A DNA stretch of 59,674 nucleotides, taken from IMG/VR virus record IMGVR_UViG_3300025769_000116, positions 1-59,674 of that record, one strand, 5' to 3'. The notes under the pieces were generated by a model. That model ran no database searches and was not told where the DNA came from. It saw nothing but the letters and a program-made list of their open reading frames with translations. The stretch is from a virus. The stretch's first letter is position 1; each line of letters begins with the position of its first letter. This document shows positions 5,890 to 59,641 of the stretch, piece by piece. A program made the translations under genes and the position numbers.

Positions 5890-7287
5890 TTACGGTTGTT
5901 CTAACCAGGTAATAGATGCAAAACCAGTTTTACCGCCAACCTTACTTGCTGCGCAAATTGTATATACATCTGAAGTCAAATCTGCAAAATCTGGTGAACC
6001 TGGGTTAGTGAATACACGACCCAATTGCAATTGAGCGCTGATTGGCATATTAATTGGAGCCGCGCCGCCAGCAAAATAGCCCGAATAGATGATATCATCT
6101 CGGCCAAAATCGATTGATGTTGCCGCGTCATCTAATTCGGCACCGACCCAATCCGCATCTAAAATACCAAATGTAGCACCAGTCAATGTCCCATTACGAA
6201 CAACGACAAAATACACACCTGAGTCATCTTCGGTGAAAACTTGAAACGCCTGAGGAGCAACATAAGAATCAAGAGCTGCAGCCTTCAATCGAATACTCAG
6301 TAGAGGATAGAAGGTGTTTGCCACTGCAAGATTACCAGAACCCACGGTCATTGTGGGTGGATTTGTCGACGTATTAATTGCTGATAATGAGTTATTTAAT
6401 ACACCGAGCTCTTCAACACCACCTTCAGCAACAACTGATGTTGAGGATTGAAATAAGTAATGATCAATATTATCAGTGTATTCAGGTAGAGCTTCTAATT
6501 CAAACCGAACTGGCAAATTAGGAGTCTTGGTCCAAGTGCCTTGAGTATTATTCGCGTTATAGACCGTATGAATTATATGTAATTCATTATCAATAGCAAA
6601 CCCAAAACGAGTCATACCCGTGCCATACCATTCGTATTCAATACAAAGCAATTGCTGTTTAGCAAAATCGAATGTTATACCGCTACGGCCTGTACCATCT
6701 AATTTATCACCGTTCCAGTTTTCACGACTAATCCGAATAGTTTCAACTCCATTCTTACGAATACAGCAAAAATAGTTATCACCACTGTCTTCAAAGTACA
6801 TTCCGTTTTGGTCGTCGAATGTACCGATGCGTCTGCGGATACCAACTGTTCTTGGTTCGAATCTAATTGCCATTGAGGCAAACTGTTCTTTACCTGGAAT
6901 GTAAGGAATGACACGTCGAGATTGTCGGACAACCTTATCACCAATTGAAGTGACTCGCATGATCACAGATTTTTCTACGATAATATCACTACCTGGGTTT
7001 GTTGGATCAAACGATTCTGGCACTGCTGCATTATTATTGATATAAGCTTCACCACCGCCAGTTCTTGTAGTTTGGAATGTGTCGTTATCAGCAAACGCGC
7101 TGAAAGAATTCCAGAATATTGTTTGAACACCAGATGTTTTTAAACGATTCTTTGAAGTAAAGTCTGGTCTCCAATCTGTGATTGCTCCAAACCTGTCAGC
7201 GATTACAACACCTTGAAAGTCTTCACGACCTGGCCATGTTGTATCTTTGCCTAAAAAATTCTGGGTATCTCTATTCCATTGAGCCAT
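5890..7287 (-). CDS. Virion structural protein, paralogue of 48141-49532
   Basis: 465 residues beginning MAQWNRDTQNFLGKD. It matches the 463-residue protein at 48141-49532 along its entire length (for example WRPDFTSKNRLK versus WRPSFTSKNRLR, YIPGKEQF versus YVPGKEQF, YEWYGTG in both, GTWTKTP versus GTWIKTP, KTGFASITW versus KTGIASLSW). Proteins of this kind are virion components in marine T4-like phages, probably tail-fibre or baseplate-associated and rich in beta structure. Late box 37 bases upstream. Lies apart from the other structural genes. Confidence 0.75.
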   Translation of the reverse strand: MAQWNRDTQNFLGKDTTWPGREDFQGVVIADRFGAITDWRPDFTSKNRLKTSGVQTIFWNSFSAFADNDTFQTTRTGGGEAYINNNAAVPESFDPTNPGSDIIVEKSVIMRVTSIGDKVVRQSRRVIPYIPGKEQFASMAIRFEPRTVGIRRRIGTFDDQNGMYFEDSGDNYFCCIRKNGVETIRISRENWNGDKLDGTGRSGITFDFAKQQLLCIEYEWYGTGMTRFGFAIDNELHIIHTVYNANNTQGTWTKTPNLPVRFELEALPEYTDNIDHYLFQSSTSVVAEGGVEELGVLNNSLSAINTSTNPPTMTVGSGNLAVANTFYPLLSIRLKAAALDSYVAPQAFQVFTEDDSGVYFVVVRNGTLTGATFGILDADWVGAELDDAATSIDFGRDDIIYSGYFAGGAAPINMPISAQLQLGRVFTNPGSPDFADLTSDVYTICAASKVGGKTGFASITWLEQP

Positions 7288-17075: not shown

Positions 17076-18029
17076 TTATTCTTCAGATAAGTTTGCTAAA
17101 AGGGCGTTCCATAAAGTTTTAAACGAAGCAATATTATTTCTTGCTAAGTTAAACCTATCTGAAGTAGTGAACTTATTGAAATACTGTGCATCACTATTAA
17201 TAGTAGTAATCAATTGATTTGCTACAGAATAACAATAGTTAGCATGCAATTGGGGATCTTCGTTGTAATCATACATAATAGTAGCATTGGCACCAGTTTC
17301 TGGTAAAGCACCATAATTAGGATGTACACATATAATTTGACTCTTAATCGCTTCTATCATAGCAATACACGACGTTTCTTTCCAAATATTTGGATATAGA
17401 AAAATATGAGCATTATCAAGAGCTCTTAGTACAGTTTCATTATCTACTGAACCGTGATAAGTCATGTTTGGGTGACTAGAAATTTGTTCAAATAATGGTC
17501 TATATTCAGCATCTCTCGATTCCCATCCATAAATTGAAAACGATGAAAAAACATCGAGATGAATGTTGTTATATTGACGAGCAAGTGCATCAAAAATAGG
17601 AACTAAAAGTTCTAATCCTCGATGAGGAGTAGTGTGATAAACGAATCGAATTTGAGAAGTATCTTTATTGCGAGGAGCATATTGTTTTTCTATAGCGTTG
17701 TAAATGACAGAGCACTCTGAATATGGAATACCATATTTCATAATATATTGATCTCTTTGCCAAGAGCTCACAAAAACAAAGTGATAAAATTGCTCCCATC
17801 CACCGTCTTTTAAAATAGAATTTTCTGGATCTTCGGCGAGATCGTGACAATAAAAAATATTAGGTACATCATCATAAAGTTCCCTGGGGCGAGACAGATG
17901 AATAGCAAAATTCTTAAGTAGATTTGGATCTACATTTTCTATGATTCTTTGTCTCATCATTTCTGTTCCGCCCATAGCGTTAGCAGAAAGATCTGTGTTA
18001 ATGATTTCTCCTTTGTATATACAGCTCAT
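17076..18029 (-). CDS. GT-B glycosyltransferase (GT4-like)
   Basis: 317 residues. N-terminal AMGGTEMM, middle FVSSWQRDQYI and VIYNAIEKQY, and in the C-terminal half FVYHTTPHRGLELLVPIF, NIHLDVFSS, ETSCIAMIEAIKS (the nucleotide-sugar E-x7-E region), which define a GT-B fold retaining transferase similar to GT4. The acceptor is unknown; options are host lipopolysaccharide, virion glycans or modified DNA. Overlaps the next upstream gene by four bases. Confidence 0.82.
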   Translation of the reverse strand: MSCIYKGEIINTDLSANAMGGTEMMRQRIIENVDPNLLKNFAIHLSRPRELYDDVPNIFYCHDLAEDPENSILKDGGWEQFYHFVFVSSWQRDQYIMKYGIPYSECSVIYNAIEKQYAPRNKDTSQIRFVYHTTPHRGLELLVPIFDALARQYNNIHLDVFSSFSIYGWESRDAEYRPLFEQISSHPNMTYHGSVDNETVLRALDNAHIFLYPNIWKETSCIAMIEAIKSQIICVHPNYGALPETGANATIMYDYNEDPQLHANYCYSVANQLITTINSDAQYFNKFTTSDRFNLARNNIASFKTLWNALLANLSEE

Positions 18030-18304
18030 TTTTCTACCTCAATGCTTTCCATGAAATCTACACGAAAAGATTTCCAAGAGTCGGTATCTATTTCATAGAC
18101 AGCAATTACGTTTGGTTTTTCTTGTCGTGCTTTTTTTAGTTGTGGGTAACGAGTTTCTGCTGGGTGTACAATTTCTTCTACTACGGCAGGAAGAAGATCT
18201 TTTACAAGAGTACATTTCATTGTTCGCTTTTCACCGTTAACTTTTTCAAATTTAACAGTACAAACGTTTTCTTTTAGCATTGCTTCAATTTCACTTTTAT
18301 TCAT
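18026..18304 (-). CDS. DUF2693-like protein
   Basis: 92 residues. CTVKFEKVNGEKRTMKCTL and VIAVYEIDTDSWKSFRVDFM match the conserved core of a phage family I recall as DUF2693 (related to T4 small proteins). Probably a small beta-rich nucleic-acid-associated domain; no proven function. ATGA overlaps on both sides tie it to the two glycosyltransferases. Confidence 0.7.
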   Translation of the reverse strand: MNKSEIEAMLKENVCTVKFEKVNGEKRTMKCTLVKDLLPAVVEEIVHPAETRYPQLKKARQEKPNVIAVYEIDTDSWKSFRVDFMESIEVEK

Positions 18305-19149
18305 AATTCAATTTCCATAAATTTTTTACTTTCTTGACGATCGTAATTAAAAATTTCATCTAGTGTTAGATGAGTTCCAGTTTCCTTCCACCATCTGTCA
18401 ATAAGTTGATACGAATAAATGGAAGCGTTTGCTTGTTCCCGGTATTCGTCTGAATTAGCCATTAATTCAACCTTAATACCATATATATTCGTTGTATCAA
18501 AGTCATTGACATTATGGTTAAAGAGAGGGAATGAATAACATCTACCGAATCCAGTCAAAACATTATTTTCAGTTGATGTATGGTTAAATGGCAATGGCAT
18601 ATGCCATTTGATTACGTTTTCTCCTAGTTCGTGATCAAAATAAAAACGAACTAATTTTTCTGCATATTTTCTTTTAAGTACATAGCATTGTAATCCATGA
18701 TCATAATATTCTCTACGCCTTGGAGCCATAATTGGATAATCTTTCCACATATTCCACGGTTGATCATAAATGCCACAAAGATGAAGTGCCAACCATTTAT
18801 TCCCAAGTCTATTAATAAACTCTTGATACGTGAAATTCCAATGTTGTACTGGTGTGAAGTCTACATCGTCTTCAAAAAAAATGCCAACCTCTTCATTTGT
18901 ATTTTCATACCACCACTTGATGGCAAGCAGATGAGAAGAAAAAGTTCCTTTTGCAACTCCTTTTTCTACACCTGGATTTGGATACCAAATCTCCCAATCG
19001 CCTTCCCCATCTTTCCAACGAGTAAATCGTATGAAATTAATGTCAGAAATTCCTAACTTAGCAAATTCCTGAGTAGTATATTCCATTCTCTCAGGCGCTT
19101 CGTACAAATTGATGACATTAGGACGAGGCATTCCTTCAAGTTTATTCAT
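18301..19149 (-). CDS. GT25-like glycosyltransferase
   Basis: 282 residues. NVINLYEAPERMEYTTQEF is the usual start of GT25 (LPS biosynthesis) enzymes, followed by LLAIKWWYE and the acidic metal motif FFEDDVDF, then LQCYVLKRKYAEKLV. Probably transfers galactose-like sugars. ATG at 19149 is preferred because GAGG lies seven bases upstream; a longer frame to 19176 would overlap the upstream gene by 35 bases. Confidence 0.75.
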   Translation of the reverse strand: MNKLEGMPRPNVINLYEAPERMEYTTQEFAKLGISDINFIRFTRWKDGEGDWEIWYPNPGVEKGVAKGTFSSHLLAIKWWYENTNEEVGIFFEDDVDFTPVQHWNFTYQEFINRLGNKWLALHLCGIYDQPWNMWKDYPIMAPRRREYYDHGLQCYVLKRKYAEKLVRFYFDHELGENVIKWHMPLPFNHTSTENNVLTGFGRCYSFPLFNHNVNDFDTTNIYGIKVELMANSDEYREQANASIYSYQLIDRWWKETGTHLTLDEIFNYDRQESKKFMEIEL

Positions 19150-19378
19150 CAATTTCCTCAAGCGTTTCATAATCAATAACTGGCATACACCAATTTGCTT
19201 GCATCATTCTTAAAACCCATTTGGCGTCTTCTTTACTACCAGCTTCAACCGGAACAGGATTCTCAGTAACAAAAACAGGTTTTGCATTTTCATAATGAAC
19301 TTCGTGAAATGCGTAAAGATTTCCTTTCTTTACTAGACGATAGTTCCAATGAGTTTCTTTTGTGTCGTATTCATCCAT
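19142..19378 (-). CDS. Hypothetical protein, paralogue of 8091-8378
   Basis: 78 residues. Shares HWNYRLVKK and YAFHEVHYE, and a C-terminal acidic tail, with the protein at 8091-8378. Unknown function. Overlaps the dNMP kinase gene by eight bases. Confidence 0.65.
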   Translation of the reverse strand: MDEYDTKETHWNYRLVKKGNLYAFHEVHYENAKPVFVTENPVPVEAGSKEDAKWVLRMMQANWCMPVIDYETLEEIDE

Positions 19379-24764: not shown

Positions 24765-25943
24765 CTATTGTGCATTAATAATATCAACGATTCTATGCGC
24801 TAATTCGTTAAAATAATTTGTGTTATGACCTCTTGTCGTCATAGCCGCCGTACCTATTCGAATTCCAGACGTTTCTACAAAACTTTTTGGATCATTTGGT
24901 ATACCATTCTTATTAACAGTAATACCATTTTCTTCGAGTAAATCAGCAGCTTCTTTTCCACTACGACCAGTAGAAGTCAAGTCAAGTAAAACAATGTGCG
25001 AATCTGTTCCTTCTGTTTGCACTTTCAGACCTCGAGAAGTGAACACGGAGCACATTTCCATTGCATTATTTATTACTCGTCGAGTATAAAGAGAAAATTC
25101 ATCTGTGTTGGCTTCTATGAATGCTTGTGCTTTGGCTGCGATTTGATTCATGAGTGGTCCACCCTGCGTTCCTGGAAAGATTGCAGAATTGATTTTTTTA
25201 GTATAGTCTTTGTTATTCCAAAGAATGATACCACCCCGTGGTCCGCGGAGTGTCTTGTGCGTAGTTGATGTTACGACATCTGCATAAGGTAAAGGATTAT
25301 CATAAGTCTTTCCGGCAATGAGACCAGAATAGTGTGCCATGTCAACCATTAACTTAGCACCAACAAAATCAGCAATTTCTTTAAAGCGCTTCCAATCGAT
25401 TTGTCGTGGATAAGCAGAAGCACCAGCAATTATTAATTCGGGACGATGAAGTTTTGCTTTTTCGTGTACTTCATCATAATCAATCCAGCCTTCTTCATTT
25501 ACTCCATAAGAAAACGATTGATAAACTTTACCTGATAAAGTTACACGCGCACCGTGAGTTAAATGTCCACCGGCCGCAAGATCCATTCCAAGGATTGTAT
25601 CTTTAGGTTGGAGAAAAGCTTGAAACACTGCAAGATTTGCGTTGGCACCAGAATGTGGTTGAACATTGGCATATTCGGCACCATAAAGTTCTTTCAATTG
25701 ATCAATTGCAAGATTTTCAATTTCATCATAATTTTTGCAGCCGTTATAATATCTCTTGCCAGGATATCCTTCTGCATATTTGTTAGTAAAGATAGATCCA
25801 CAAAGGCTCATTACTGCGGATGAAGCAAAGTTTTCTGAAGCGATTAATTCGACATTTTTTCTTTGTCTTTCTTTTTCGTGTTCCATTAAGCGCATAATAC
25901 GCTCATCAATATGTCTAGGAATACCCGTCACGTTTTTCTCCAT
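24765..25943 (-). CDS. glyA: Serine hydroxymethyltransferase
   Basis: 392 residues, a little shorter than cellular GlyA (about 417). Substrate and cofactor sites are complete: ELIASENF, NKYAEGYPGKRYY, QPHSGANAN, VDMAHYSGLIA and the PLP lysine K230 in TSTTHKTLRGPRGG. It converts serine and tetrahydrofolate to glycine and methylene-tetrahydrofolate, the carbon donor for the phage ThyX at 31019-31681. One-base overlap with the glutaredoxin gene places it in the nucleotide operon. Confidence 0.95.
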   Translation of the reverse strand: MEKNVTGIPRHIDERIMRLMEHEKERQRKNVELIASENFASSAVMSLCGSIFTNKYAEGYPGKRYYNGCKNYDEIENLAIDQLKELYGAEYANVQPHSGANANLAVFQAFLQPKDTILGMDLAAGGHLTHGARVTLSGKVYQSFSYGVNEEGWIDYDEVHEKAKLHRPELIIAGASAYPRQIDWKRFKEIADFVGAKLMVDMAHYSGLIAGKTYDNPLPYADVVTSTTHKTLRGPRGGIILWNNKDYTKKINSAIFPGTQGGPLMNQIAAKAQAFIEANTDEFSLYTRRVINNAMEMCSVFTSRGLKVQTEGTDSHIVLLDLTSTGRSGKEAADLLEENGITVNKNGIPNDPKSFVETSGIRIGTAAMTTRGHNTNYFNELAHRIVDIINAQ

Positions 25944-41712: not shown

Positions 41713-44445
41713 TTATTTTTCTCCTGGCGTATCTTTTTTATACTTCCTAACTAATTTATTTGTACCCCATTCGCCAGCGCCACCTTCTTCATTAGTTACA
41801 ACAACCTTAGAGTCTACTCCTTTTTTCTGAAGAGTTTTTAATATTGCTTGCGCGTGTCTTTCGTTGTCGGCTTTTTTCCAAGGCTTACCATTAATATGAA
41901 CAGTATGTGTTTGCTTTGATCGTGGACGGTATGATGTACGTGATGTACGGCGGCGACCAAACCTAAGTTCATCTGGCTCATTACGTAATTCATATTCAAT
42001 TTCACGCCTTTTAAAATCACTAATTTCGTTAGTTGTTGACTCAATGCTTACTTCTTCTTTGCGAACTTTAGCAGCTAAATCTTTGTCTGCCTTACCCCAT
42101 GTACCGGATGATTTAGTTGCAAAACTATTGACGCGAGCTAAGCCCCATTGTGCCGGAGTCGTGCCTGGTCTATGACCAGTTTTCCATGCAGCAACACCAC
42201 GATCAAAAACTTGTTTAAGAATAGAATAAGAAATACCAGTCTTTTCTGCTTTATTTTGCAACGCAGCTTTAGGATTACTTTCGAAGATAAAATCTACTTG
42301 TTCTATTAGATCATTTAATTCTTCGTGCACCTGCGATGCTGGAACATTTTTCCACTTTTTAAATTGAGAGAAACGACCATCGAATTTTACTTGATTTTCT
42401 TTTGTTAGCGCCTGATGAGGTCTCTTTAACTGAGTTTCTTCTTGTTTACGCTTAGATTCGACTTTCTTATCTAATGGTGTTTTTGCTTCGCCAAACATCT
42501 TCGCAAAAGTTTTTGTATGTTTAGATGTTTTAGTTTTTGCAGTAGCATCACCGGGTGCCGGCTTATAAGCGGCTGGATTGTTATCTGACATTTTAGCTTG
42601 CTTGTCGAATTGCGCTTGCCTTTTTGATTGTGTAGATTTAGACAATCCTTTATGATAAGATTTATTAAGGTTTTCTTCACTAACGTGTTTACCTCTACCA
42701 TGTTTAACAAGGTACTTGCCGGAAGGATCTTTGTGAACAACGCCATTATGTTTTTTGGCATGGCTGTATGCGGTGTCTTTATCGAACGTTCCAGCGTTAC
42801 GATAGTCGCGACCCTTTTCGCCTTTGGCGCCAAGGTATCCTTCTTGCGTAATAATCTCTCTAACGCTTTCTTTTTTCTCTTTGTTTCCATCCAATTTGTC
42901 TTTAGCTTTTTTAGCAGTATATGCTGCGGCAGCAGCAGGGATTGCGGCTGCGGCCGCAGCCTGACCAACGGCACCAGCAGCACCAACTGCTACTCTTTTC
43001 GCCACTTTCTTTGCGACAGCTTTGGTTGCTTTCTTGGCAAGATATCTTCCGGCTGTTTTAGCTACACCGCGTGCAGCCAAACCAACTAGAGGTGCCGCGA
43101 GCGGGATGGCTTCATTAACTTTTTCTTCGCGAACCATTCGCCTTTGCATTCTTTCTTTCTCAGCCTGCTTAACTTGAGGAAGTAATCTTTTAGCAAGACG
43201 ATCTATTAAACCTTTTTTAGTTTTTGCTTTGTCGTCTATTTTCATTTTTTGATCAATAGACAATGTATTATAATCTCTTTTTCCAGCAACGATATGCTTA
43301 ACTTTGAGAAGAGCTTTTTTGTGAGCTCTCATTTTTAATCGGCCAATGTCAGCCTTTTTTCTCATCATAATTTTTCTTCTCATAGCAATTCTTTTTGCTA
43401 ATCTTTTCATGAGTAGACCACGCTTTCTTCGAGCAGCTCTACTTAATGCTTCATCGAGATTTTCTTCGGTCATTTTATTTTGATCTCGAGTTGCAAGAAT
43501 TCTTGCTCGATCGAGCATACGATCATGTTTAGCTTTATCTGAAGCTTTTTCTCTTTCAATAGCTGATTTAGCACGATTCACGTGATCAGTTGCTTCTCTA
43601 ATACCCATTCCTTTACGTGTTAGAGTATATAATGCTTTACTAGATTTTTGATTAATAGCAAGCTTATTTGGTAAGCCCATTAAAAAGTTTGATATTTTAC
43701 CGTCTTTAGCAAGCTCTCTCATTTTAGAAGCAGACATACCATCGACACCTTCTGAGTCTGGATCTCTCTCCCCGGCAGTTACTGTTTGGATTGATTTAAA
43801 ATTATATTCTTTACCATTATACTTGTTGGCAAGTGTATCAAATTCTTTAACGCGATCAGAACCCACGACAATGGTGACATCTGTATATGCTGAGTCAAGT
43901 TCTTTGAGTACTTCGATGATATTTCTAGCAGAAGATTTTTTAACAACATCACCGAATGCTTTCTGAGCCCAAATTAATTTGTCTTTGTAAGATAAAGGAT
44001 TTTTTTTAGCATCTTGACTGTGAGAAAGATAAATTGCTGCTTCTCCACCTACCCTTTTAGCAGTCTTATTTAATGCCCTTACTAATTTTTCGTGGCCGGT
44101 GGTAGGTGGATTCATGCGACCGAAAGTGATAACAATTTTTTTATCGCCGTTAACTGCTTCGCTTTTAACTTTTTGAACCTTTTCTTTACTAGCGCCAGCG
44201 CCCGATTCTTTATTTTTTTCAGCATCACTATCACTAGTGTTTGGTTCGAGTTCTATGTATTTCTCTGGATCGATTTCTGTAAAAGCAACTTTCTTTTTTC
44301 CGCCGTCAATCGTTTTGCTATCAGAATCAAAAGATTTGAACTTTTTGAGTTTTTTTCTATCTTTTTTCTTGTCGTTTGAATTGTTTGAAGCATCATCAAC
44401 ATCTACTTCAGCGTCGGTTTCAACGTCTTTATCTAATTTAGGCAT
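41713..44445 (-). CDS. Nucleotidyltransferase-containing large virion-associated fusion protein
   Basis: 910 residues. Acidic/basic low-complexity N-terminus (1-100); a cytidylyltransferase/NMNAT-type domain (about 101-260) with ITFGRMNPPTTGHEKL at 107-121 (HIGH-like GH) and SASKMREL (ISSTxxR-like); basic helical section (about 300-430); an alanine/lysine-rich hydrophobic stretch (about 450-520); a conserved phage domain with SYSILKQVFDRGVAAWKTG near the C-terminus; and a KYKKDTPG end. Late promoter box 33 bases upstream implies a particle-linked protein. The nucleotide substrate is unknown. Confidence 0.72.
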   Translation of the reverse strand: MPKLDKDVETDAEVDVDDASNNSNDKKKDRKKLKKFKSFDSDSKTIDGGKKKVAFTEIDPEKYIELEPNTSDSDAEKNKESGAGASKEKVQKVKSEAVNGDKKIVITFGRMNPPTTGHEKLVRALNKTAKRVGGEAAIYLSHSQDAKKNPLSYKDKLIWAQKAFGDVVKKSSARNIIEVLKELDSAYTDVTIVVGSDRVKEFDTLANKYNGKEYNFKSIQTVTAGERDPDSEGVDGMSASKMRELAKDGKISNFLMGLPNKLAINQKSSKALYTLTRKGMGIREATDHVNRAKSAIEREKASDKAKHDRMLDRARILATRDQNKMTEENLDEALSRAARRKRGLLMKRLAKRIAMRRKIMMRKKADIGRLKMRAHKKALLKVKHIVAGKRDYNTLSIDQKMKIDDKAKTKKGLIDRLAKRLLPQVKQAEKERMQRRMVREEKVNEAIPLAAPLVGLAARGVAKTAGRYLAKKATKAVAKKVAKRVAVGAAGAVGQAAAAAAIPAAAAAYTAKKAKDKLDGNKEKKESVREIITQEGYLGAKGEKGRDYRNAGTFDKDTAYSHAKKHNGVVHKDPSGKYLVKHGRGKHVSEENLNKSYHKGLSKSTQSKRQAQFDKQAKMSDNNPAAYKPAPGDATAKTKTSKHTKTFAKMFGEAKTPLDKKVESKRKQEETQLKRPHQALTKENQVKFDGRFSQFKKWKNVPASQVHEELNDLIEQVDFIFESNPKAALQNKAEKTGISYSILKQVFDRGVAAWKTGHRPGTTPAQWGLARVNSFATKSSGTWGKADKDLAAKVRKEEVSIESTTNEISDFKRREIEYELRNEPDELRFGRRRTSRTSYRPRSKQTHTVHINGKPWKKADNERHAQAILKTLQKKGVDSKVVVTNEEGGAGEWGTNKLVRKYKKDTPGEK

Positions 44446-44476: not shown

Positions 44477-45199
44477 CTATTTATAATTCTCTTTGAATGA
44501 ACGGATAAAATCATAATTCAAAGTAGAAGATCCTTCATTCCAAATAGTAGAATCTCTAACATAGCCCAAAGCTACATTTGGATTAGCTAACACGAGAGGC
44601 AATTGGCATTTTCTTTGATGTCTAAGGAAATAAGCATTATCAATACAACCAAGCAATCCCACATCTTCAATTTCATCAACTAAAAACTGCGCTGTCTTTT
44701 TTGTAATTGCATAGGCATGGGCACCTTCGTGGCCATTTATACTTAACCACTCTTTAGCATTGCCGGCTTTGACATGATTATATTTTTCTGGATCTGGAAT
44801 TTTATAGCCCAAAACTGCTATTTTATAGTCAGGTACTTCTAATTCTAAAGGATGCAGCATAATTGCATCGTGTTCTAAAATAACAACAGCTTCATCTGGA
44901 CCTTGGGCTATTCTTTTCCACATCGCTCCATGACCGGCAGAAGCACATTCTGCTTTATGACCGGGCAACGGATTTAATAAAAAGGTTGGTTGATGCGGTT
45001 CTAAAATGGGCCAACGCATTTTTACACCTGTTAAGCTCCACGCGTCTCTTCCGGTCATATGAGAATAGCCGTCGAAATAGCTCCAAGCTAATCCTACCTT
45101 GTCGCAAGACTCGGCTGCACCTTGGGCGTACTCTATAGATTTAGGTTCATTAATTCTTAGAATAAAAGCCTTCGACACTTTGTGCGTATTGTTGCTCAT
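44477..45199 (-). CDS. GT25-like glycosyltransferase
   Basis: 240 residues. KAFILRINEPKSIEYAQGAA start, GHGAMWKRIA and VVILEHDAIML (acidic EHD motif), with AYAITKKTAQFLVDEI near the end, as in GT25 family members. Overlaps the sulfotransferase gene upstream by 50 bases. Part of the glycan island. Confidence 0.72.
   Translation of the reverse strand: MSNNTHKVSKAFILRINEPKSIEYAQGAAESCDKVGLAWSYFDGYSHMTGRDAWSLTGVKMRWPILEPHQPTFLLNPLPGHKAECASAGHGAMWKRIAQGPDEAVVILEHDAIMLHPLELEVPDYKIAVLGYKIPDPEKYNHVKAGNAKEWLSINGHEGAHAYAITKKTAQFLVDEIEDVGLLGCIDNAYFLRHQRKCQLPLVLANPNVALGYVRDSTIWNEGSSTLNYDFIRSFKENYK
44478..44485 (-). promoter_or_regulatory. T4-type late promoter box
   Basis: TATAAATA on the minus strand, 33 bases before 44445. 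The same bases encode the last codons and stop (Tyr-Lys-stop) of 44477-45199. Confidence 0.75.
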
Positions 45200-45872
45200 A
45201 TTTGGCTACCTTAATTTTTGAATATAGGTCAAAATCTTCTCTGAAGTGATTGGCCATTTTTTGTACAGTTGGTCTATCGAACTCAAATTCTGCATTTCTT
45301 TCTGTTCTAAACTCAGATTTAAAGTTCGGTAATTTTTCTACTATATCTATATTTAAACTACGAACGAACTCGGCCAATTCATCATTTAAATTTTCATACA
45401 ACCAAAACTTGCCTTTATAACTGTCTTGAAATCTGAGCATGTCGTATTGGAGAATTCTTGAATTAGGTTCATTTGTAAAACAACCAAATTGATCTACATA
45501 AGAGTTATAATGTTCAAGAGTGCCGGGACCAGTATGACCTCTCCATTTTTTAAAGAAATAATAAAAACTTTTTTGTCGATCAATAGGATCTCTCAAAACG
45601 GCAAATATATTCCAATGCCTAATGTGGTCAAGATTAATTAAACCATCTTTATACAATTCTTCGAGTGTTACATGATATATCTTAAAGTTTTTTTGATATT
45701 TGAACATTATTGCTTGAGGAAGATTGCCTTGAAATTTAGTATCTTCGATTGGGCCAATAATCGCGTTTGGATCATGCGGCATGACGTTTTTACGAAAAAA
45801 TTCCATCATGCTACTACTGGCAGTTTTAGGTGTCCTCAAAAAAATAAATTTGTATCTTGGTGATATAAACAC
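45150..45872 (-). CDS. Sulfotransferase (PAPS-dependent)
   Basis: 240 residues. 5'-phosphosulfate loop FLRTPKTASSSMM (R13-S21, with K16 and T17) and 3'-phosphate motif AVLRDPIDRQKSFYYF (R94), the two PAPS-binding signatures of carbohydrate sulfotransferases. It would add sulfate to a glycan, presumably one built by the neighbouring transferases. One-base overlap with the GT32 gene. Confidence 0.85.
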   Translation of the reverse strand: MFISPRYKFIFLRTPKTASSSMMEFFRKNVMPHDPNAIIGPIEDTKFQGNLPQAIMFKYQKNFKIYHVTLEELYKDGLINLDHIRHWNIFAVLRDPIDRQKSFYYFFKKWRGHTGPGTLEHYNSYVDQFGCFTNEPNSRILQYDMLRFQDSYKGKFWLYENLNDELAEFVRSLNIDIVEKLPNFKSEFRTERNAEFEFDRPTVQKMANHFREDFDLYSKIKVAKYEQQYAQSVEGFYSKN

Positions 45873-46525
45873 TATTGTCCCTCATTATATTGTTTAGTCC
45901 ATGGCATTCCAGTAGAACCCCAATGGTGCTCAGCGTATACTTTATCTGGTCCATTATAATATTCAGCTCCGCGCGCATAATATTGTGGGATAAAGTAATG
46001 GGATGGCCAAATCCTTAAATCGTCTCTATCAACATAACGTGATAGGTATTTGTTACCAGTAGACATATAAGGTTCTGGCATTAGTTGTCCAGGATATAAT
46101 TTATGAAGATCGTCAATAATATCTTCAAGTAATTTGTTTCCAGGATTTGCTGCCATAATTGGCTGCACAAAGTTTTTATAGTTAGGATCTGTATGCTTGC
46201 TATTTTCAAAACAAGTATAAGCAAAGTTATCAGGAGAATCAAAAAGTTCTTCACAATTATTTAAACAAACCATATCTGCTTCAGGCCAAAAGCCACCTTC
46301 TTCATATATCAATTCATAACGAATTAAATCAGAAACTCCACACCACTTACGAGTATAATAATAACGATCAATAAGTTTTTGATTTCTAAATGTTCTTTGC
46401 TTAAGCATATCATCTGTAAAGATTTTATACTCCCAGTCTGGATGTTTATCTTTCCAGGTATTCATCCATTGAAGAGGCGGTTGATAAGGACCTATCCAAA
46501 TTTGAGTAATTTTTTTTTCAATCAT
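45872..46525 (-). CDS. GT32-like glycosyltransferase
   Basis: 217 residues. KKITQIWIGPYQPP, GVSDLIRYELIYEEGGFWPEADM (with E82-x-D84 in the place of the DxD metal motif) and a C-terminal AEHHWGSTGMPW are typical of GT32 (OCH1-type) transferases. ATG at 46525 forms ATGA with the preceding gene; a five-codon extension is unlikely. Confidence 0.82.
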   Translation of the reverse strand: MIEKKITQIWIGPYQPPLQWMNTWKDKHPDWEYKIFTDDMLKQRTFRNQKLIDRYYYTRKWCGVSDLIRYELIYEEGGFWPEADMVCLNNCEELFDSPDNFAYTCFENSKHTDPNYKNFVQPIMAANPGNKLLEDIIDDLHKLYPGQLMPEPYMSTGNKYLSRYVDRDDLRIWPSHYFIPQYYARGAEYYNGPDKVYAEHHWGSTGMPWTKQYNEGQ

Positions 46526-47310
46526 TGTATTAAATTCCACCTTTTATTATCATCACATAATTTCAATACACTATCTCTTTCAACAAACCAATCGTGTTTA
46601 AAAAAACAAAGTCTTTTACCCTCTTCTGTCATTTCAATTTTTTCTTTTGGAGAACTAAATGTAGGTGTTTCTTTAAAATCAAAACCGTAAATATTTACTG
46701 ATTGCACTTGATCACGATTTTTTCTTTTAATATTTTTATTAAATGCGTCGAGTATGTGTAATACTGTTACACCAGTAGATGGGTTTCTAAATTTTCGCCA
46801 AAGGAGCGCTTTTAAATCCCTTTCATTAGCATATTTTTCATTGTATTCATGTTCAAATTCTTTTTTAGCAAGAGGATTTTGATATTTTAAAGGGGTGCCT
46901 TTTGGAAGCCAAAAAAAGCCTTTTGTCATTTTATTAAAGCCTAGACCTAAGTCTAAAACATTAACTTTAACACCATCATCTCCATTTAAAGTATCTACCA
47001 TTTTTGGTGCAGCTATAGGCCCTGGCACTACGCCAGGATGATCTGCACCTATTCTACTAACCCAAAAGTGATAATTTTCGGTATCCCATACAGACCAAAC
47101 ATCTATTTTAGATCCAACAGCTGACTTTAAATCATATTCTTCATTATCATACCTTTCATCTCCAACAAAAAAAATTCCTGAATGATTCATTCTAATCACG
47201 ACATCGTGTGAATCTATTTCTTCACCATATGTTTTAGAATTAAGAGATTGCGCGTTTCCTACAACTGCAACCCTTTTTTCAGCTACTAATGCGTGAAATT
47301 CGGGTATCAT
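46522..47310 (-). CDS. GT29-like (sialyltransferase-type) glycosyltransferase
   Basis: 262 residues. VAVVGNAQSLNSKTYGEEID and SHDVVIRMNHSG reproduce the L-motif of GT29 sialyltransferases, which bind CMP-sugars (residues about 14-41). A downstream NPSTGVTVLHIL fits the S-motif region. A eukaryotic-looking family reported sporadically in marine bacteria and viruses. ATG at 47310 has AAGG upstream. Confidence 0.8.
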   Translation of the reverse strand: MIPEFHALVAEKRVAVVGNAQSLNSKTYGEEIDSHDVVIRMNHSGIFFVGDERYDNEEYDLKSAVGSKIDVWSVWDTENYHFWVSRIGADHPGVVPGPIAAPKMVDTLNGDDGVKVNVLDLGLGFNKMTKGFFWLPKGTPLKYQNPLAKKEFEHEYNEKYANERDLKALLWRKFRNPSTGVTVLHILDAFNKNIKRKNRDQVQSVNIYGFDFKETPTFSSPKEKIEMTEEGKRLCFFKHDWFVERDSVLKLCDDNKRWNLIQ

Positions 47311-47312
47311 TT

Positions 47313-47876
47313 TTATACCTTTTCTACCCACCAAACAAAATCGTCTGCTGTAGTATAAGTATCGCCAAACGCTTCCTTTACTGCTTGTTGTACAGTTGGA
47401 AAATGAATGTCGTGTCCAATGATTCTACCACCTTTCTTAATCTTAGGTGTCCAGTCCTTAATATCTCTTGAGCATCCTTCGTAACCATGATCAGCATCAA
47501 TAAAAACAAAATCTAAGCTTTCGTCTTCAACTTGCTCAGCGGCTTTTGACGTGTAGTCTCGAATAAACGTTGTTCGATCTGGATGTTGAGCACAAAATTC
47601 CATGATATTAGAATAATATTTGTCATGATCCCAAGCATGGCCATTTTCGCCGGGAGTCCATTTTTCAGGTCCATTGTTTCCTGGTTGAGGAGCATATAAA
47701 TCAACGCCGATCATATGCATATTTCGACACGTTTTAACTAAGTGCCTAAACGTATGTCCTTCCCAAGTACCGAGTTCAGCACCTTTAGTCCAGCCAAAAG
47801 ATCTTGCCATTTTTTCAATTACTAACCATCTCCACATATCACCGCCGTCGTGCCCTCTGTCTCTTATACGTCCCAT
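47313..47876 (-). CDS. Class I SAM-dependent methyltransferase
   Basis: 187 residues. Motif I GAELGTWEGHTFRHLVKT, motif II-like DFVFIDADHGYEG and GGRIIGHDIHFP match the Methyltransf_24 family, often used in sugar or glycan modification. First gene of the glycan island in transcription order. Confidence 0.82.
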   Translation of the reverse strand: MGRIRDRGHDGGDMWRWLVIEKMARSFGWTKGAELGTWEGHTFRHLVKTCRNMHMIGVDLYAPQPGNNGPEKWTPGENGHAWDHDKYYSNIMEFCAQHPDRTTFIRDYTSKAAEQVEDESLDFVFIDADHGYEGCSRDIKDWTPKIKKGGRIIGHDIHFPTVQQAVKEAFGDTYTTADDFVWWVEKV

Positions 47877-47914
47877 AATATAAACTCCATCTTATAGTTT
47901 ATTCTATTTATTGA

Positions 47915-48136
47915 TTATTCTTCGGTAACATTATTACTTAATAATCTTCCCGAAATAAGATCTGCTTTTTCTGATTGTATTACTTCAATACAAAGATTAG
48001 TAACTTCTATTTCTTTACGAATCCACCACATTTTTTGTTGCAATTTATCTAGCTCTGCTTGATAGTATTCTAACTCTTTTTCTTTCCGAATTTTTTGCTC
48101 AATAATATCGGTTAAGAGCAGAATATTATTAGCCAT
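47915..48136 (-). CDS. Small coiled-coil protein
   Basis: 73 residues, one long amphipathic helix (EQKIRKEKELEYYQAELDKL). No known family. Between the fibre-type structural protein and the glycan island. Confidence 0.6.
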   Translation of the reverse strand: MANNILLLTDIIEQKIRKEKELEYYQAELDKLQQKMWWIRKEIEVTNLCIEVIQSEKADLISGRLLSNNVTEE

Positions 48137-48140
48137 TTTA

Positions 48141-49532
48141 TTACAGTAGTTCAGACCACGACAACGATGCTATACCTGTTTTATTACCAAGCGTCGAAGC
48201 CATAGCTATAGTTATAGTTTCTGATTCGACTGAGGCAAAAGAATTTGTAGTGAATTTTCTTTTTAATTGATAACCTACATCTCTATCGAATAAAACGGGA
48301 ACGCTAGTACCAGATAGAATAGTAGCAGAATAAATGATATCGTCTTTTGTAAAAGACATGTCCGTGGCATCCTCATCGACTTCAACTGCGGAATATAATT
48401 CACCTTGATCTGCAAATGTAGCACCGGTAAGTGTGGCATTTCTCACTATCAAAAGAAATACAGTTGTGTTATCAGTGGTAGCAGCCTGGATTCCTCTCAA
48501 TTTCACAGCAGATTGTTTTGCTACATCTTTCAATCGCATTGTTAAAATTGGGAAAAATGTATTTGCGGCTCCTATATTATTGCCAGACGAATCGATTTCG
48601 ACAGCTGGTGCACTAGATGTATAATCTAATTTATTGATTACAGTATGAACTTGACCAACCTCTTCATACTCACCTTCAGAAATAACTGATGTAGAAGATA
48701 GATAAAAATAAGCACCACTACCTGCATAGGTTGGACTAGCAATTAATTCAGCACTTAGGGGAAGAAATGGAGTTTTGATCCAGGTACCAACGGTATTATT
48801 GGCATTATTAACTGTATGGATAACATGAAATTCGCCATCGATAACATAACCAAACCTAATACTACCAGTTCCGTACCACTCGTATTCGACACCGAGTAAT
48901 TGTTGTGCAAGTGGATTAGCAGTAATTTGAGATCTGCCGTCACCTTCAAGGGTATCACCATTCCATTCTCCAGCATTTCTACCTACTCGAACGGTCTCGA
49001 CACCATTCTTTTTAACTACAAGGAAGTAATCTCCAGTACCGTCATCTTCAAAATAGAATCCGTTATTTGCATCATACATACCTATTCTTCGAGTGATTCC
49101 TACTTCTGGTAAGTCGAATCGACATGCCATAGTTACAAATTGCTCTTTACCAGGCACATAAGGAATAATAGTAGCGGTTTCTCTTCGTATCGAATCATTT
49201 GCAGCAATAACATGAAGTACGGCAGTATTTTCTATGATACTATCAGCACCAGGGTTAAAAGGATCAAACGCTGCAGGATTAGCTGCATTATTTGCAATAT
49301 ATGATTCAGCAGTACCAGTCTTCTCTTCGAGCCAAGTCGGATCTCCAACAAGTGTATGAGAAAATGTATGATGGAATACTGTGTGGGGATTACTAACTCT
49401 TAAACGATTTTTAGAGGTGAACGAAGGTCGCCAGTCGGACTGGGCACCAAATTTATCTGCTAGATTAACGGTCTCAAATATCGAGGTGCCATTAGGCAAA
49501 TATGATTGTGTCTGTTTATTCCATTGAGCCAT
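48141..49532 (-). CDS. Virion structural protein, paralogue of 5890-7287
   Basis: 463 residues, MAQWNKQTQSYLPNG start. It aligns with 5890-7287 along the full length, with the same TSKNRLRVSNPHTVF and YEWYGTGSIRFGYVID-type blocks. Probably tail-fibre or baseplate related, beta-rich. One base separates it from the KWDG protein gene. Confidence 0.75.
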   Translation of the reverse strand: MAQWNKQTQSYLPNGTSIFETVNLADKFGAQSDWRPSFTSKNRLRVSNPHTVFHHTFSHTLVGDPTWLEEKTGTAESYIANNAANPAAFDPFNPGADSIIENTAVLHVIAANDSIRRETATIIPYVPGKEQFVTMACRFDLPEVGITRRIGMYDANNGFYFEDDGTGDYFLVVKKNGVETVRVGRNAGEWNGDTLEGDGRSQITANPLAQQLLGVEYEWYGTGSIRFGYVIDGEFHVIHTVNNANNTVGTWIKTPFLPLSAELIASPTYAGSGAYFYLSSTSVISEGEYEEVGQVHTVINKLDYTSSAPAVEIDSSGNNIGAANTFFPILTMRLKDVAKQSAVKLRGIQAATTDNTTVFLLIVRNATLTGATFADQGELYSAVEVDEDATDMSFTKDDIIYSATILSGTSVPVLFDRDVGYQLKRKFTTNSFASVESETITIAMASTLGNKTGIASLSWSELL

Positions 49533-50771
49533 TTATTTTTGCCATCCTTTAATATATTGATCTGAAAAATTAGCATTACTAAACTGAAGCCTATCAACTA
49601 GCTTAAGAGAATTTTGACCAAGATGATCAATAGCTACAAATCCTTCTTGACCCGTAATTTCATAACCATTGCGCGTCTTAAGAAATGTTTTCAATCCACC
49701 AACCTTTTCAAGCTTACGAACAATCATTAATTTAGCATCAACTAAATGATTATAAAGCGTAAATACTTTTTCTATTTCTCTTGCATTATTCTTTTTAAAA
49801 TAAGTTAATGCTTGATTTCTGAGATCATCTTGTTTTTTCTTTCCTTTAGGTGTAGATCTTTTATCTGCTTGCTTATCATAGTAATCATTAACAAATACAA
49901 TCAAACCCTTTACAAATGTTTTTACGTTTGTAATTCTTTGACCTTGTCTTACTAAACTATTAATATACGTATTCACTCTCATGTTTAATTCGGGATCAGC
50001 CAAGTCATTAAGCGCATTCTTTGGAATAGTTCTAAACAGAGAACCGGCTTGAGAAAGAATAGAAGTAAGAGCAGCGGTTTCTTCTTTTGTAAATGTGGCA
50101 TTACCCGATTTATCTTCGAAGGTAGCGTCGACAGACCAAACAGAACTTACTTCTTTGAGGCCTGGTGTAATCGCCTTTCCAAAAGTTGCTGACATTGTTT
50201 CAAATGATTCTCCTCCGTATAGAGTGTGCCAGACCACACCGATTTTGGATCGCTTGATTCTCTTAGCGAGACTGCTATTTTCCGGTATCGCATAAACAAT
50301 GGTATTAGGATGGAAAGTAATATACGATTCTCCATCAATCGTATCCGTAGATATATCTTCTTGCGTAAAGAGAAAATCACCTTGAATTACGCCTTTCTTA
50401 ATGCCGAGCTTTGAAAATTCGGCAAGAGCAACTTTAAATTTAGCATTGAGTTCACCACTTAAATCATTGTCAATTTCAGAATTTGTTTTATAAATTTTTG
50501 GGTTCTTATTAAATACGCCTTTTTTTGCTATAAAGAATTTTCCATCAGATGGATCTATACCGGCAAAAATTGCCGGCGCTCCATCCCACTTCACACTAAT
50601 GTTAACTGGGGCACGTGCGTTACCTGAGAGCATATCTCTAATAGCACGAAAGTAATTAATAACATTACGTGTACCAATTACTCCACCATCTATAACAGCA
50701 TCTTCTGCATGAGTCATGTGAAGATTTTTACCGGTAGCCGCTTCTTCTAAATGCGTTTTAAACGTTTTCAT
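49533..50771 (-). CDS. DUF6267-like protein with ligase-type KWDG motif
   Basis: 412 residues. N-terminus MKTFKTHLEEAATGK matches the capsid-targeting pattern. SVKWDGAPAIFAG (K61-G64) resembles motif I (KxDG) of nucleotidyl-transferring ligases, followed by GVIQGDFLFT and KIGVVWHTLYGG, which fall where motifs III and IV would. I recall the family as DUF6267, found in marine T4-like phages. Ligase activity is not shown. Confidence 0.72.
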   Translation of the reverse strand: MKTFKTHLEEAATGKNLHMTHAEDAVIDGGVIGTRNVINYFRAIRDMLSGNARAPVNISVKWDGAPAIFAGIDPSDGKFFIAKKGVFNKNPKIYKTNSEIDNDLSGELNAKFKVALAEFSKLGIKKGVIQGDFLFTQEDISTDTIDGESYITFHPNTIVYAIPENSSLAKRIKRSKIGVVWHTLYGGESFETMSATFGKAITPGLKEVSSVWSVDATFEDKSGNATFTKEETAALTSILSQAGSLFRTIPKNALNDLADPELNMRVNTYINSLVRQGQRITNVKTFVKGLIVFVNDYYDKQADKRSTPKGKKKQDDLRNQALTYFKKNNAREIEKVFTLYNHLVDAKLMIVRKLEKVGGLKTFLKTRNGYEITGQEGFVAIDHLGQNSLKLVDRLQFSNANFSDQYIKGWQK

Positions 50772-58155: not shown

Positions 58156-58845
58156 TCACAATTCTTCGAAGAGAACATTATTGACGTAGTCGTTTTTATC
58201 TTCTTCTGATATACCCATCGATAAAATTGAGCGATGTAATTGTACGTTTTTCTTTTGATTATGGCAATACTTATTTTGAGCTGGTAAAAAATCTTGACCC
58301 ATGTTTCGATAAACTTTTGAGGTAATCCCGTTCATATAGAACGAAACAGAAGTCAATCCTACTTTACAAAATTGTTCAAGCTCATTTTCATTATCAATTC
58401 CACCCGCCGCCACGATGTTTGGTGAAAAGATTTCAAGAGCCCACTCAGGAAGTTCTCTTTCTTTCTTCCAGCTCAGATTAGAAGTTAATCCTGCAAAGTA
58501 TTCCATATAAGAATGATTCTCACTCGAAACCGGCGAGTAGTCCATAAACGACCCGCTAATTTTATTTGGTCCTGAGACAATATCAAATCCAAGGATAGGA
58601 AGATTCATCCAAGGTTGCGGAAACACATTAATGTGTAACAACCAAAGCTTTTTATTTCCTTCTGTTCCTGGTTCAATAATTTTTAAGTGAGCCTTTCTAA
58701 TAGATTCAGATTTCCAAAACTTATCAGTCCAACCATCAAAATGTTTTGTCAGTTTTGGGTTTTCATAGCGAGCAAGATTTTGGTCGAAAATATTTTCGAT
58801 TTCGTTAGATAGCAACCTTAGTCTATTCCAAATCACACTGTCCAT
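58156..58845 (-). CDS. pcyX: Ferredoxin-dependent bilin reductase (PcyX-like)
   Basis: 229 residues. LLHINVFPQPWMNLPILGFDIV aligns with the bilin-binding core of the family: H71 and D88 have the same 17-residue spacing as His88 and Asp105 of PcyA. FMDYSPV and QNKYCHNQKKN (the PcyA-like QxxK-N region) are also present. It would reduce biliverdin IX-alpha made by the heme oxygenase using host ferredoxin. PcyX-type enzymes of oceanic phages are known to make phycoerythrobilin; which bilin this one makes cannot be read from the sequence. Confidence 0.9.
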   Translation of the reverse strand: MDSVIWNRLRLLSNEIENIFDQNLARYENPKLTKHFDGWTDKFWKSESIRKAHLKIIEPGTEGNKKLWLLHINVFPQPWMNLPILGFDIVSGPNKISGSFMDYSPVSSENHSYMEYFAGLTSNLSWKKERELPEWALEIFSPNIVAAGGIDNENELEQFCKVGLTSVSFYMNGITSKVYRNMGQDFLPAQNKYCHNQKKNVQLHRSILSMGISEEDKNDYVNNVLFEEL

Positions 58846-59026: not shown

Positions 59027-59641
59027 TTAATAGTCGTCATTGTAATCAGACTCGTTTTCGTATTCAGGATCTATGAAACTTGTGATTTCATCTAACCCAT
59101 CTTCTAATCGCCAAAAATCTATTAGCTCATAGAATAATCTTTCAGCAAAGCTGAAACATATTTTGGCCTCTTTTACCATGTCATCATTTAAAAGTTCTCT
59201 GATACCAGCTATGAGATCAGAACGATTCTCGAATTCATACATCAAACCAGAACCGGGTACATTCTTTTTAATAATTTGTCCGCCATGCATATCTCCAAAA
59301 TGCCGAACATATACGTGTGCAATCAAACTTTCATTATCCAGATGACTTAAATGTTCAACGTAATCGTCAACCGAAGGTAAAAAATCTGTAAGCTCTTTTA
59401 AACGATGTTCTGCTTCAAGCTCTTGCAAATCTTCCAGAATAAGAGAAGATCTAAAAACACCCTCTAACTTTAAAGGTAAATCAACAAGCGACTCGAGTGT
59501 TGAGTAAATAATGAGTTGTGAATGTAAATATTTTTGATAAAGCCTTGGATGTATATCTCCATCAATTAATATATTTGCGAACTCAGTTCTCTCAGCATTT
59601 TGATGGTGCTCCCAAGTCAATTCTTTAAGATTGTTAGACAT
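59027..59641 (-). CDS. ho1: Heme oxygenase
   Basis: 204 residues. LKELTWEHHQNAERTEF provides the proximal histidine (H13, as in the E-x-H-x-x-A-E of HO-1). YVRHFGDMHGGQIIKK corresponds to the YxRYLGDLSGGQ distal helix. It opens heme to biliverdin IX-alpha, CO and Fe2+ with electrons from ferredoxin. First gene of the bilin operon; its promoter lies outside the window. Confidence 0.93.
   Translation of the reverse strand: MSNNLKELTWEHHQNAERTEFANILIDGDIHPRLYQKYLHSQLIIYSTLESLVDLPLKLEGVFRSSLILEDLQELEAEHRLKELTDFLPSVDDYVEHLSHLDNESLIAHVYVRHFGDMHGGQIIKKNVPGSGLMYEFENRSDLIAGIRELLNDDMVKEAKICFSFAERLFYELIDFWRLEDGLDEITSFIDPEYENESDYNDDY

Follow-up and report, generated by a model that had tools for sequence, protein, structure and literature searches.

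The five-gene island and its hotspot

The window analysed here is the whole of IMGVR_UViG_3300025769_000116, a stretch of 59,674 bases whose long open reading frames (ORFs) are nearly all on the minus strand and which carries the T4-like replication genes for a gp41-type helicase, gp32, UvsX, gp59 and the late-transcription coactivator. An island of five minus-strand genes with abutting or overlapping frames runs from 47876 down to 44477. In order, the genes encode an S-adenosylmethionine (SAM)-dependent methyltransferase (MT) of the Methyltransf_24 type (47313..47876; PF13578, 1.1e-17), a GT29 sialyltransferase-fold glycosyltransferase (46522..47310 from its ATG, the ORF starting with TTG at 47334; PF00777, 8.3e-10), a GT32-like GT-A glycosyltransferase of the Gly_transf_sug type (45872..46525 from its ATG, with a GTG at 46540; PF04488, 9.7e-9), a sulfotransferase (ST) of the Sulfotransfer_2 type (45150..45872; PF03567, 1.3e-8) and a GT25-like glycosyltransferase of the Glyco_transf_25 type (44477..45199; PF01755, 1.4e-4). 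Four of the families are over their Pfam curated cut-offs and GT25 is slightly under. A first-pass annotation had described these five genes as one co-linear glycan-building unit at these positions. The minus-strand ORFs bear this out, as do the Pfam matches, profiles, motifs and GT25 model described below for the MT, GT32-like, ST and GT25-like genes. We propose that the five genes form a modular glycan-assembly cassette, transcribed late and located at a fixed hotspot in a group of uncultured marine T4-like phages; taken together with the mechanism set out below, we consider this reading to be evenly balanced.

The hotspot lies between two minus-strand genes, one for a DUF6267 protein (49533..50771; PF19782, 3.5e-103) and one for a 910-aa cytidylyltransferase-like protein with DUF5824 (41713..44445; phrog_3041, 5.8e-90; DUF5824, 1.4e-15). 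The interval between the DUF6267 gene and the cassette holds, on the same strand, a virion structural protein (48141..49532; phrog_1645, 9.4e-93) and a 73-aa ORF (47915..48136) that adjoins the cassette in sister contigs too (79-82%). The earlier placement of the island between fibre-type structural genes is therefore right in part: a virion structural protein by PHROG does lie upstream, past the 73-aa ORF, but downstream there is the cytidylyltransferase-like/DUF5824 protein. This 910-aa flank was considered as a maker of a cytidine monophosphate (CMP)-sugar and dropped, as its CTP_transf_like match is as weak as 0.032. The window has two paralogues of the phrog_1645 protein, at 5890-7287 and 48141-49532.

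We scanned for the hotspot with the DUF6267 flank, taking the best 80 of at least 599 viral stretches with near-duplicates kept; 42 of the 80 are without the downstream flank, and families were counted at E < 1e-10 in the 38 contigs having both. The cassette recurs in these other contigs, with at least one of the five families in 35 of the 38. GT25 (32 of 38) is the most persistent member; ST is in 17 and GT29 in 7. MT, GT32, ST and GT25 occur together in 13 hotspots and all five families in three, namely a near-copy of the window (L298) and two divergent loci (L307 and L321). The latter pair are identical to the window at 69% for MT, 61% for GT32 and 57-58% for GT25 but only 30-31% for GT29, and in both the GT29 gene precedes the MT gene. 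GT29 is thus the least conserved module of the cassette. The GT29s of L307 and L321 share 51-52% identity with the GT29 of a further cassette, L072, so this module may have entered the cassette, or been exchanged, on more than one occasion. The closest contigs (L002 and L003) repeat the island at 99-100%, whereas sister contigs, whose neighbouring structural gene is at 66-69%, have GT32-ST-GT25 without GT29 and MT. Among the other variants are some with tandem GT29s and some with an FkbM-like or a kinase-like gene, these last two identified by eye. The island is not a chance arrangement, because the cassette recurs in syntenic order across divergent contigs. This ties a viral GT29 to a conserved, swappable cassette with sulfation that is absent at this locus in the five annotated phages examined (Melnitz, C48C1, HTVC008M, DLP6 and S-WAM1), between whose flanks none of the five families was found.

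It is conceivable that the five genes make no common product and serve as cargo or stuffer DNA. Module content varies widely, as this would predict, and in the available text of PMC3037559 the stuffer idea was raised in 2010 for cyanophage lipopolysaccharide (LPS) genes. However, the retention of at least one family in nearly every two-flank hotspot, the intact frames with catalytic motifs conserved at 40-70% identity, and the MT-GT32-ST-GT25 order maintained across hotspot loci all speak against it, and we regard it as very improbable. The repeats around the island are weak and imperfect, so a repeat- or composition-marked mobile element is not supported; GC content is 31-41% across 40-53 kb, with its minimum at GT32/GT29.

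The four enzymes other than GT29 are supported individually. There are 17 further MT homologues among the hotspot loci, 64-70% identical, and 28 further homologues of GT32, 53-64% identical. The GT32 match to PF04488 is 36.3 bits against a cut-off of 23, and its profile leads to DXD glycosyltransferase folds in the PDB (4.8e-6). Residues A88 and D89, the second D, are invariant in 15 sequences. Weighing against the assignment, the protein reads ExD (PEAD) where DxD is expected, and on its sequence we call it GT32-like. The earlier sulfotransferase call holds: the match to PF03567 is 35.7 bits (cut-off 22), there are RTPKTASSS and RDPxDRxxS motifs, which resemble the loops for 3'-phosphoadenosine 5'-phosphosulfate (PAPS), and K16, S19, S21, R94 and S102 are invariant in 15 sequences. 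The ST profile leads to bile-salt and heparan-sulfate 2-O sulfotransferases in the PDB (4e-4 to 1e-3). The GT25 match of 22.2 bits does not reach the cut-off of 24, and the assignment is secured because both a profile match to a GT25 structure (5.8e-4) and a high-confidence AlphaFold model support it (predicted local distance difference test, pLDDT, 90.5; Foldseek matches to human COLGALT1 at 2.8e-7 and another GT25-named protein at 4.6e-7). Residues E109-H110-D111 are invariant in the aligned relatives. This suggests a GT25-like protein with the GT25 fold.

The GT29 protein and its viral relatives

The Pfam match of the 262-aa GT29 protein is 39 bits (cut-off 23) and is limited to residues 20-52, which hold sialylmotif L. 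We therefore looked at an alignment of the window protein with 24 viral relatives, chosen from 63 as the most window-like. PF00777 is matched at E <= 0.01 by 25/25 of the aligned proteins. Sialylmotif L (VGN...EIDSHDVVIRMN) is present and its residues are invariant in the alignment. Sialylmotif S is present as NPSTG...YGF, which aligns with PSTG...YGF of ST3Gal1. The pattern of sialylmotif VS is HxxxxE; the window protein has HDWFVE, and H239 and E244 are invariant in the 25 sequences.

A profile search of the PDB gives GT29 structures exclusively at E < 0.1 (ST3Gal1, 4.2e-15; ST8SiaIII, 1.9e-11; ST6Gal1, 6.1e-11; ST6GalNAc2, 1.2e-9). The AlphaFold model is of moderate quality (pLDDT 71.5; predicted template modelling score, pTM, 0.74), with residues 92-132 unreliable. 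Its top 14 rows in VIA-align are all GT29, with Z from 12.0 (ST8SiaIII) to 9.0, and the next matches are HPPK (Z 7.6) and GT42-type bacterial sialyltransferases (7.1 and below). Taken together, motifs, profile and model indicate that the protein encoded at 46522..47310 is a true GT29 and a predicted enzyme. The first-pass call of a GT29-like protein stands, since the S motif is not lost and the closest folds are those of GT29 rather than of other families.

The same annotation held GT29 to be mainly eukaryotic, and this does not agree with the data. A DNA pattern for the L motif is found in at least 119 stretches each of viral contigs and of bacterial genomes. Bacterial GT29s that bear sialylmotifs and lack a membrane anchor were described in 2018, according to the available text of PMC5811610. 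We built a tree of 103 rows from 36 viral and 65 bacterial input rows. These came from 80 loci each, of which 72 viral and 76 bacterial ORFs were readable, after removal of duplicates and of rows in which a regular expression found no S motif, so divergent GT29s are missing; S and VS were both recognised by regular expression in 43/72 viral and 61/76 bacterial rows. In this tree the window protein falls in a virus-specific clade of 33 viral rows plus the window (ultrafast bootstrap/approximate likelihood ratio test, 91/84), with the bacterial rows outside. A subset of 20 rows, all viral besides the window, has support of 95/90, and several long branches restrict deeper placement. A sialyltransferase family long treated as eukaryotic thus appears to have its own viral branch. 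The window GT29 resembles the bacterial GT29s of PMC5811610, as far as described in that text, in its sialylmotifs L, S and VS and its lack of a transmembrane anchor; it differs in belonging to a separate virus-only clade and in lying in a phage cassette that includes a sulfotransferase.

Single-protein searches for related loci returned only near-identical copies of the GT29 in viral contigs and no GT29 match in bacterial genomes. With tblastn against 50,697 phage records, the window GT29, ST and GT25 gave no match and GT32 gave four distant ones. The extreme rarity that these searches suggested was overturned by the L-motif DNA pattern. When another viral GT29 was used as the query against the same records there were two matches, the isolate Stenotrophomonas phage DLP6 and LR756500. 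The DLP6 GT29, gp202, passes the Pfam cut-off and adjoins two methyltransferases and glycosyltransferases. No literature on phage GT29 was found in the open-access papers searched.

Sugar donor of the GT29

We asked for KdsA, which points to 3-deoxy-D-manno-oct-2-ulosonic acid (Kdo), in 50 of the 79 GT29 loci first tried, taking the longest contigs. KdsA is present in 5/50 (three over the curated cut-off) and a CTP_transf_3 protein in 13/50 (12 over the cut-off); in four of the five contigs with KdsA a CTP_transf_3 gene adjoins it or lies near. One contig, G013, has three GT29s and a KdsA over the cut-off that adjoins a KdsB-like gene. KdsA was found in 0/40 contigs lacking GT29 (Fisher p 0.04 against the GT29-bearing set), a control that omits nine GT29-bearing contigs (one of them, G012, GT29-positive only by a profile built in this analysis); among all 49 contigs of that scan G013 is the only one with KdsA. 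The KdsA-bearing lineages are partly related, so these counts overstate independence. In the 50,697 phage records KdsA occurs in six. LR756500, one of these six and an unannotated 462-kb uncultured phage, has a 9 kb run (L405:2513-11740) of GT29, glycosyltransferase, capsule-type, MT, sulfotransferase, GT2, pyruvyl transferase, MT, KdsA and KdsB genes, in which KdsA and KdsB are over their curated cut-offs. It is like the window in combining GT29, methyltransferases and a sulfotransferase, and differs in its unrelated gene order and its extra KdsA, KdsB, capsule-type and pyruvyl-transferase genes.

Because KdsA occurs in GT29 contigs, usually beside KdsB, and NeuB is found in 0/17 hotspot contigs, CMP-Kdo is likelier than CMP-sialic acid to be the donor of the GT29, as judged from gene content. 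There are plant GT29s that use CMP-Kdo. The first-pass suggestion of a nonulosonic-acid-like glycan would accordingly need revising towards Kdo, an octulosonic acid, although NeuB-like and PseF-like genes do occur in 1/50 of the GT29 contigs; sialic-acid synthesis is not supported as a donor route in the hotspot group. The Kdo link makes the GT29 donor directly testable. Several observations weigh against it. The window is without KdsA, CTP_transf_3 (the KdsB family) or NeuB genes, and about 14-37 kb separates the kds genes from the GT29s in those IMG/VR contigs that have them. The Kdo of LR756500 could instead serve the capsule-type gene, G017 has a KdsB-like gene with no GT29 detected, and the single contig with NeuB-like and PseF-like genes points the other way.

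The GT29 could instead be a true sialyltransferase that uses host CMP-sialic acid or another CMP-nonulosonic acid. The structural neighbours of solved chemistry are all sialyltransferases and the contig with NeuB-like and PseF-like genes would suit this, but neither the lack of NeuB in the hotspot contigs nor the presence of KdsA in the GT29-bearing set does, and we consider it unlikely. One of the two GT29 contigs at L393:637-2217 and L391:896-2433 is that with the NeuB-like and PseF-like genes; in the other a GT29-like ORF is immediately followed by a cytidylyltransferase-family ORF. The cultured Synechococcus phage S-SCSM2R (L406, PQ898602) has annotated KdsA and KdsB near a glycosyltransferase gene, and GT29 was not found in the stretch around them.

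Proposed late expression and possible glycan acceptor

There is a late-promoter-like ATAAATA, of the NATAAATA type, at 47905..47911 on the minus strand, 35 nt upstream of the MT start. A second such motif, TATAAATA, at 44478..44484 on the same strand, lies 39 nt upstream of the cytidylyltransferase-like gene and would mark the boundary of the unit. The NATAAATA late promoter has been described in marine T4-like phages (PMC2984593, available text). The coding strand of the window has 20 copies of ATAAATA, more than any of 100 order-2 Markov sequences (mean 11.1, maximum 19), and the opposite strand has three (mean 12.9). The zones 8-70 nt upstream of listed gene starts make up 8.3% of positions and contain 13 of the 20 coding-strand copies (binomial p 4e-10). 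At the hotspot loci ATAAATA precedes 13/36 first cassette genes compared with 1/53 internal genes (Fisher p 1.7e-5). Taken alone, the strict TATAAATA shows no significant excess: the two strands together have 10 copies where 6.5 are expected, and 11/100 shuffles are as high. All 10 copies are, however, on the coding strand. These data fit transcription of the cassette as one late unit; the lack of ATAAATA upstream of 23/36 first cassette genes weighs against this.

None of the five island proteins has a hydrophobic 19-mer above 1.07 on the Kyte-Doolittle scale, that is, a transmembrane-like stretch. Gtr-type O-antigen seroconversion features a membrane flippase and a membrane glucosyltransferase, and the island is unlike it in this respect. 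We suggest that the five predicted-soluble enzymes would act late in infection in the host cytoplasm, where the GT32 and GT25 proteins would lengthen a short oligosaccharide using host uridine diphosphate (UDP)-sugars. The GT29 would then attach a CMP-activated 2-ulosonic acid, most likely Kdo, with the donor coming from the host pool or, in relatives, from phage KdsA and KdsB. The PAPS-dependent ST and the SAM-dependent MT would cap the glycan with sulfate and methyl.

As the acceptor we slightly favour a virion surface protein, a judgement that stands at about an even chance, because of the late control, the virion structural neighbour and the soluble enzymes. If so, the particles would have a sugar coat relevant to adsorption and recognition. 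A host envelope glycan is in our judgement a serious candidate that falls somewhat short of this, favoured by precedents within the enzyme families and by published views. Kdo is a sugar of the LPS core, and according to their Pfam descriptions GT25 and GT32 relatives function in LPS and capsule assembly. The cassette would on that account remodel host LPS, capsule or another envelope glycan, masking the receptor and excluding superinfecting phages, and would be a conserved receptor-masking system of marine phages. The capsule-type and pyruvyl-transferase genes of the LR756500 relative agree with this. The available texts of PMC7029224 and PMC2984593 read marine T4-like phage glycosyltransferases in the same way, and the preference of the former's authors for host O-chain modification by similar genes weighs against virion decoration. 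However, late-promoter-like control and a virion structural neighbour suit virion assembly better, and the island has no recognisable gene for a membrane enzyme, flippase or lipid carrier, so that we see remodelling of the host surface as a tentative possibility. A more specific form of virion decoration is speculative and, in our view, improbable: the viral GT29 lineage would consist of Kdo transferases that work with ST and MT to cover the virions with a sulfated and methylated glycan, one that contains Kdo and is similar to bacterial LPS core or capsule. Some phages would supply their own CMP-Kdo through KdsA and KdsB, and module swaps at the hotspot would change the coat.

The first-pass annotation considered a sulfated, methylated glycan of this kind unusual for a bacteriophage, whereas sugar-enzyme islands are known in marine T4-like phages from the available texts of PMC7029224 and PMC3037559. 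The host-recognition-region glycosyltransferase clusters of pelagimyophages (PMC7029224) are alike in having sugar genes near structural modules of marine T4-like phages; they differ in that GT8 dominates and, by term counts in the text available, there is no sialyltransferase, methyltransferase or sulfotransferase. The LPS clusters of cyanophages P-SSM2, S-SM2 and S-SSM7 are also multi-gene surface-sugar islands of T4-like phages but, as far as those sources describe them, lie near hli03 or phoH and have another gene set (PMC3037559, PMC2984593). Mycobacteriophages similarly encode glycosyltransferases and have glycans on virion proteins (Freeman et al. 2023, as cited in PMC12619734); these are other phages, and sulfation and GT29 go unmentioned in that citing passage. 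Phage sugar-enzyme islands are thus known, and it is the cassette, its hotspot and the viral GT29 clade that look new.

Elsewhere in the window a second pair of sugar genes at 17076-19176 encodes a GT group 1 glycosyltransferase and a weak GT25-like protein. The product of 24765-25943, labelled 'methyltransferase' by PHROGs, is a serine hydroxymethyltransferase (PF00464, 4.6e-150), and ThyX is also encoded. At 58156-58845, and probably 59027-59641, lie genes for a PcyX-type bilin reductase (PDB 5owg, 2.5e-39) and a heme oxygenase, the latter recognised among the 52 window ORFs scanned. PF05996 is found in 14/17 hotspot contigs, and the PcyX phages and the cassette group therefore overlap.

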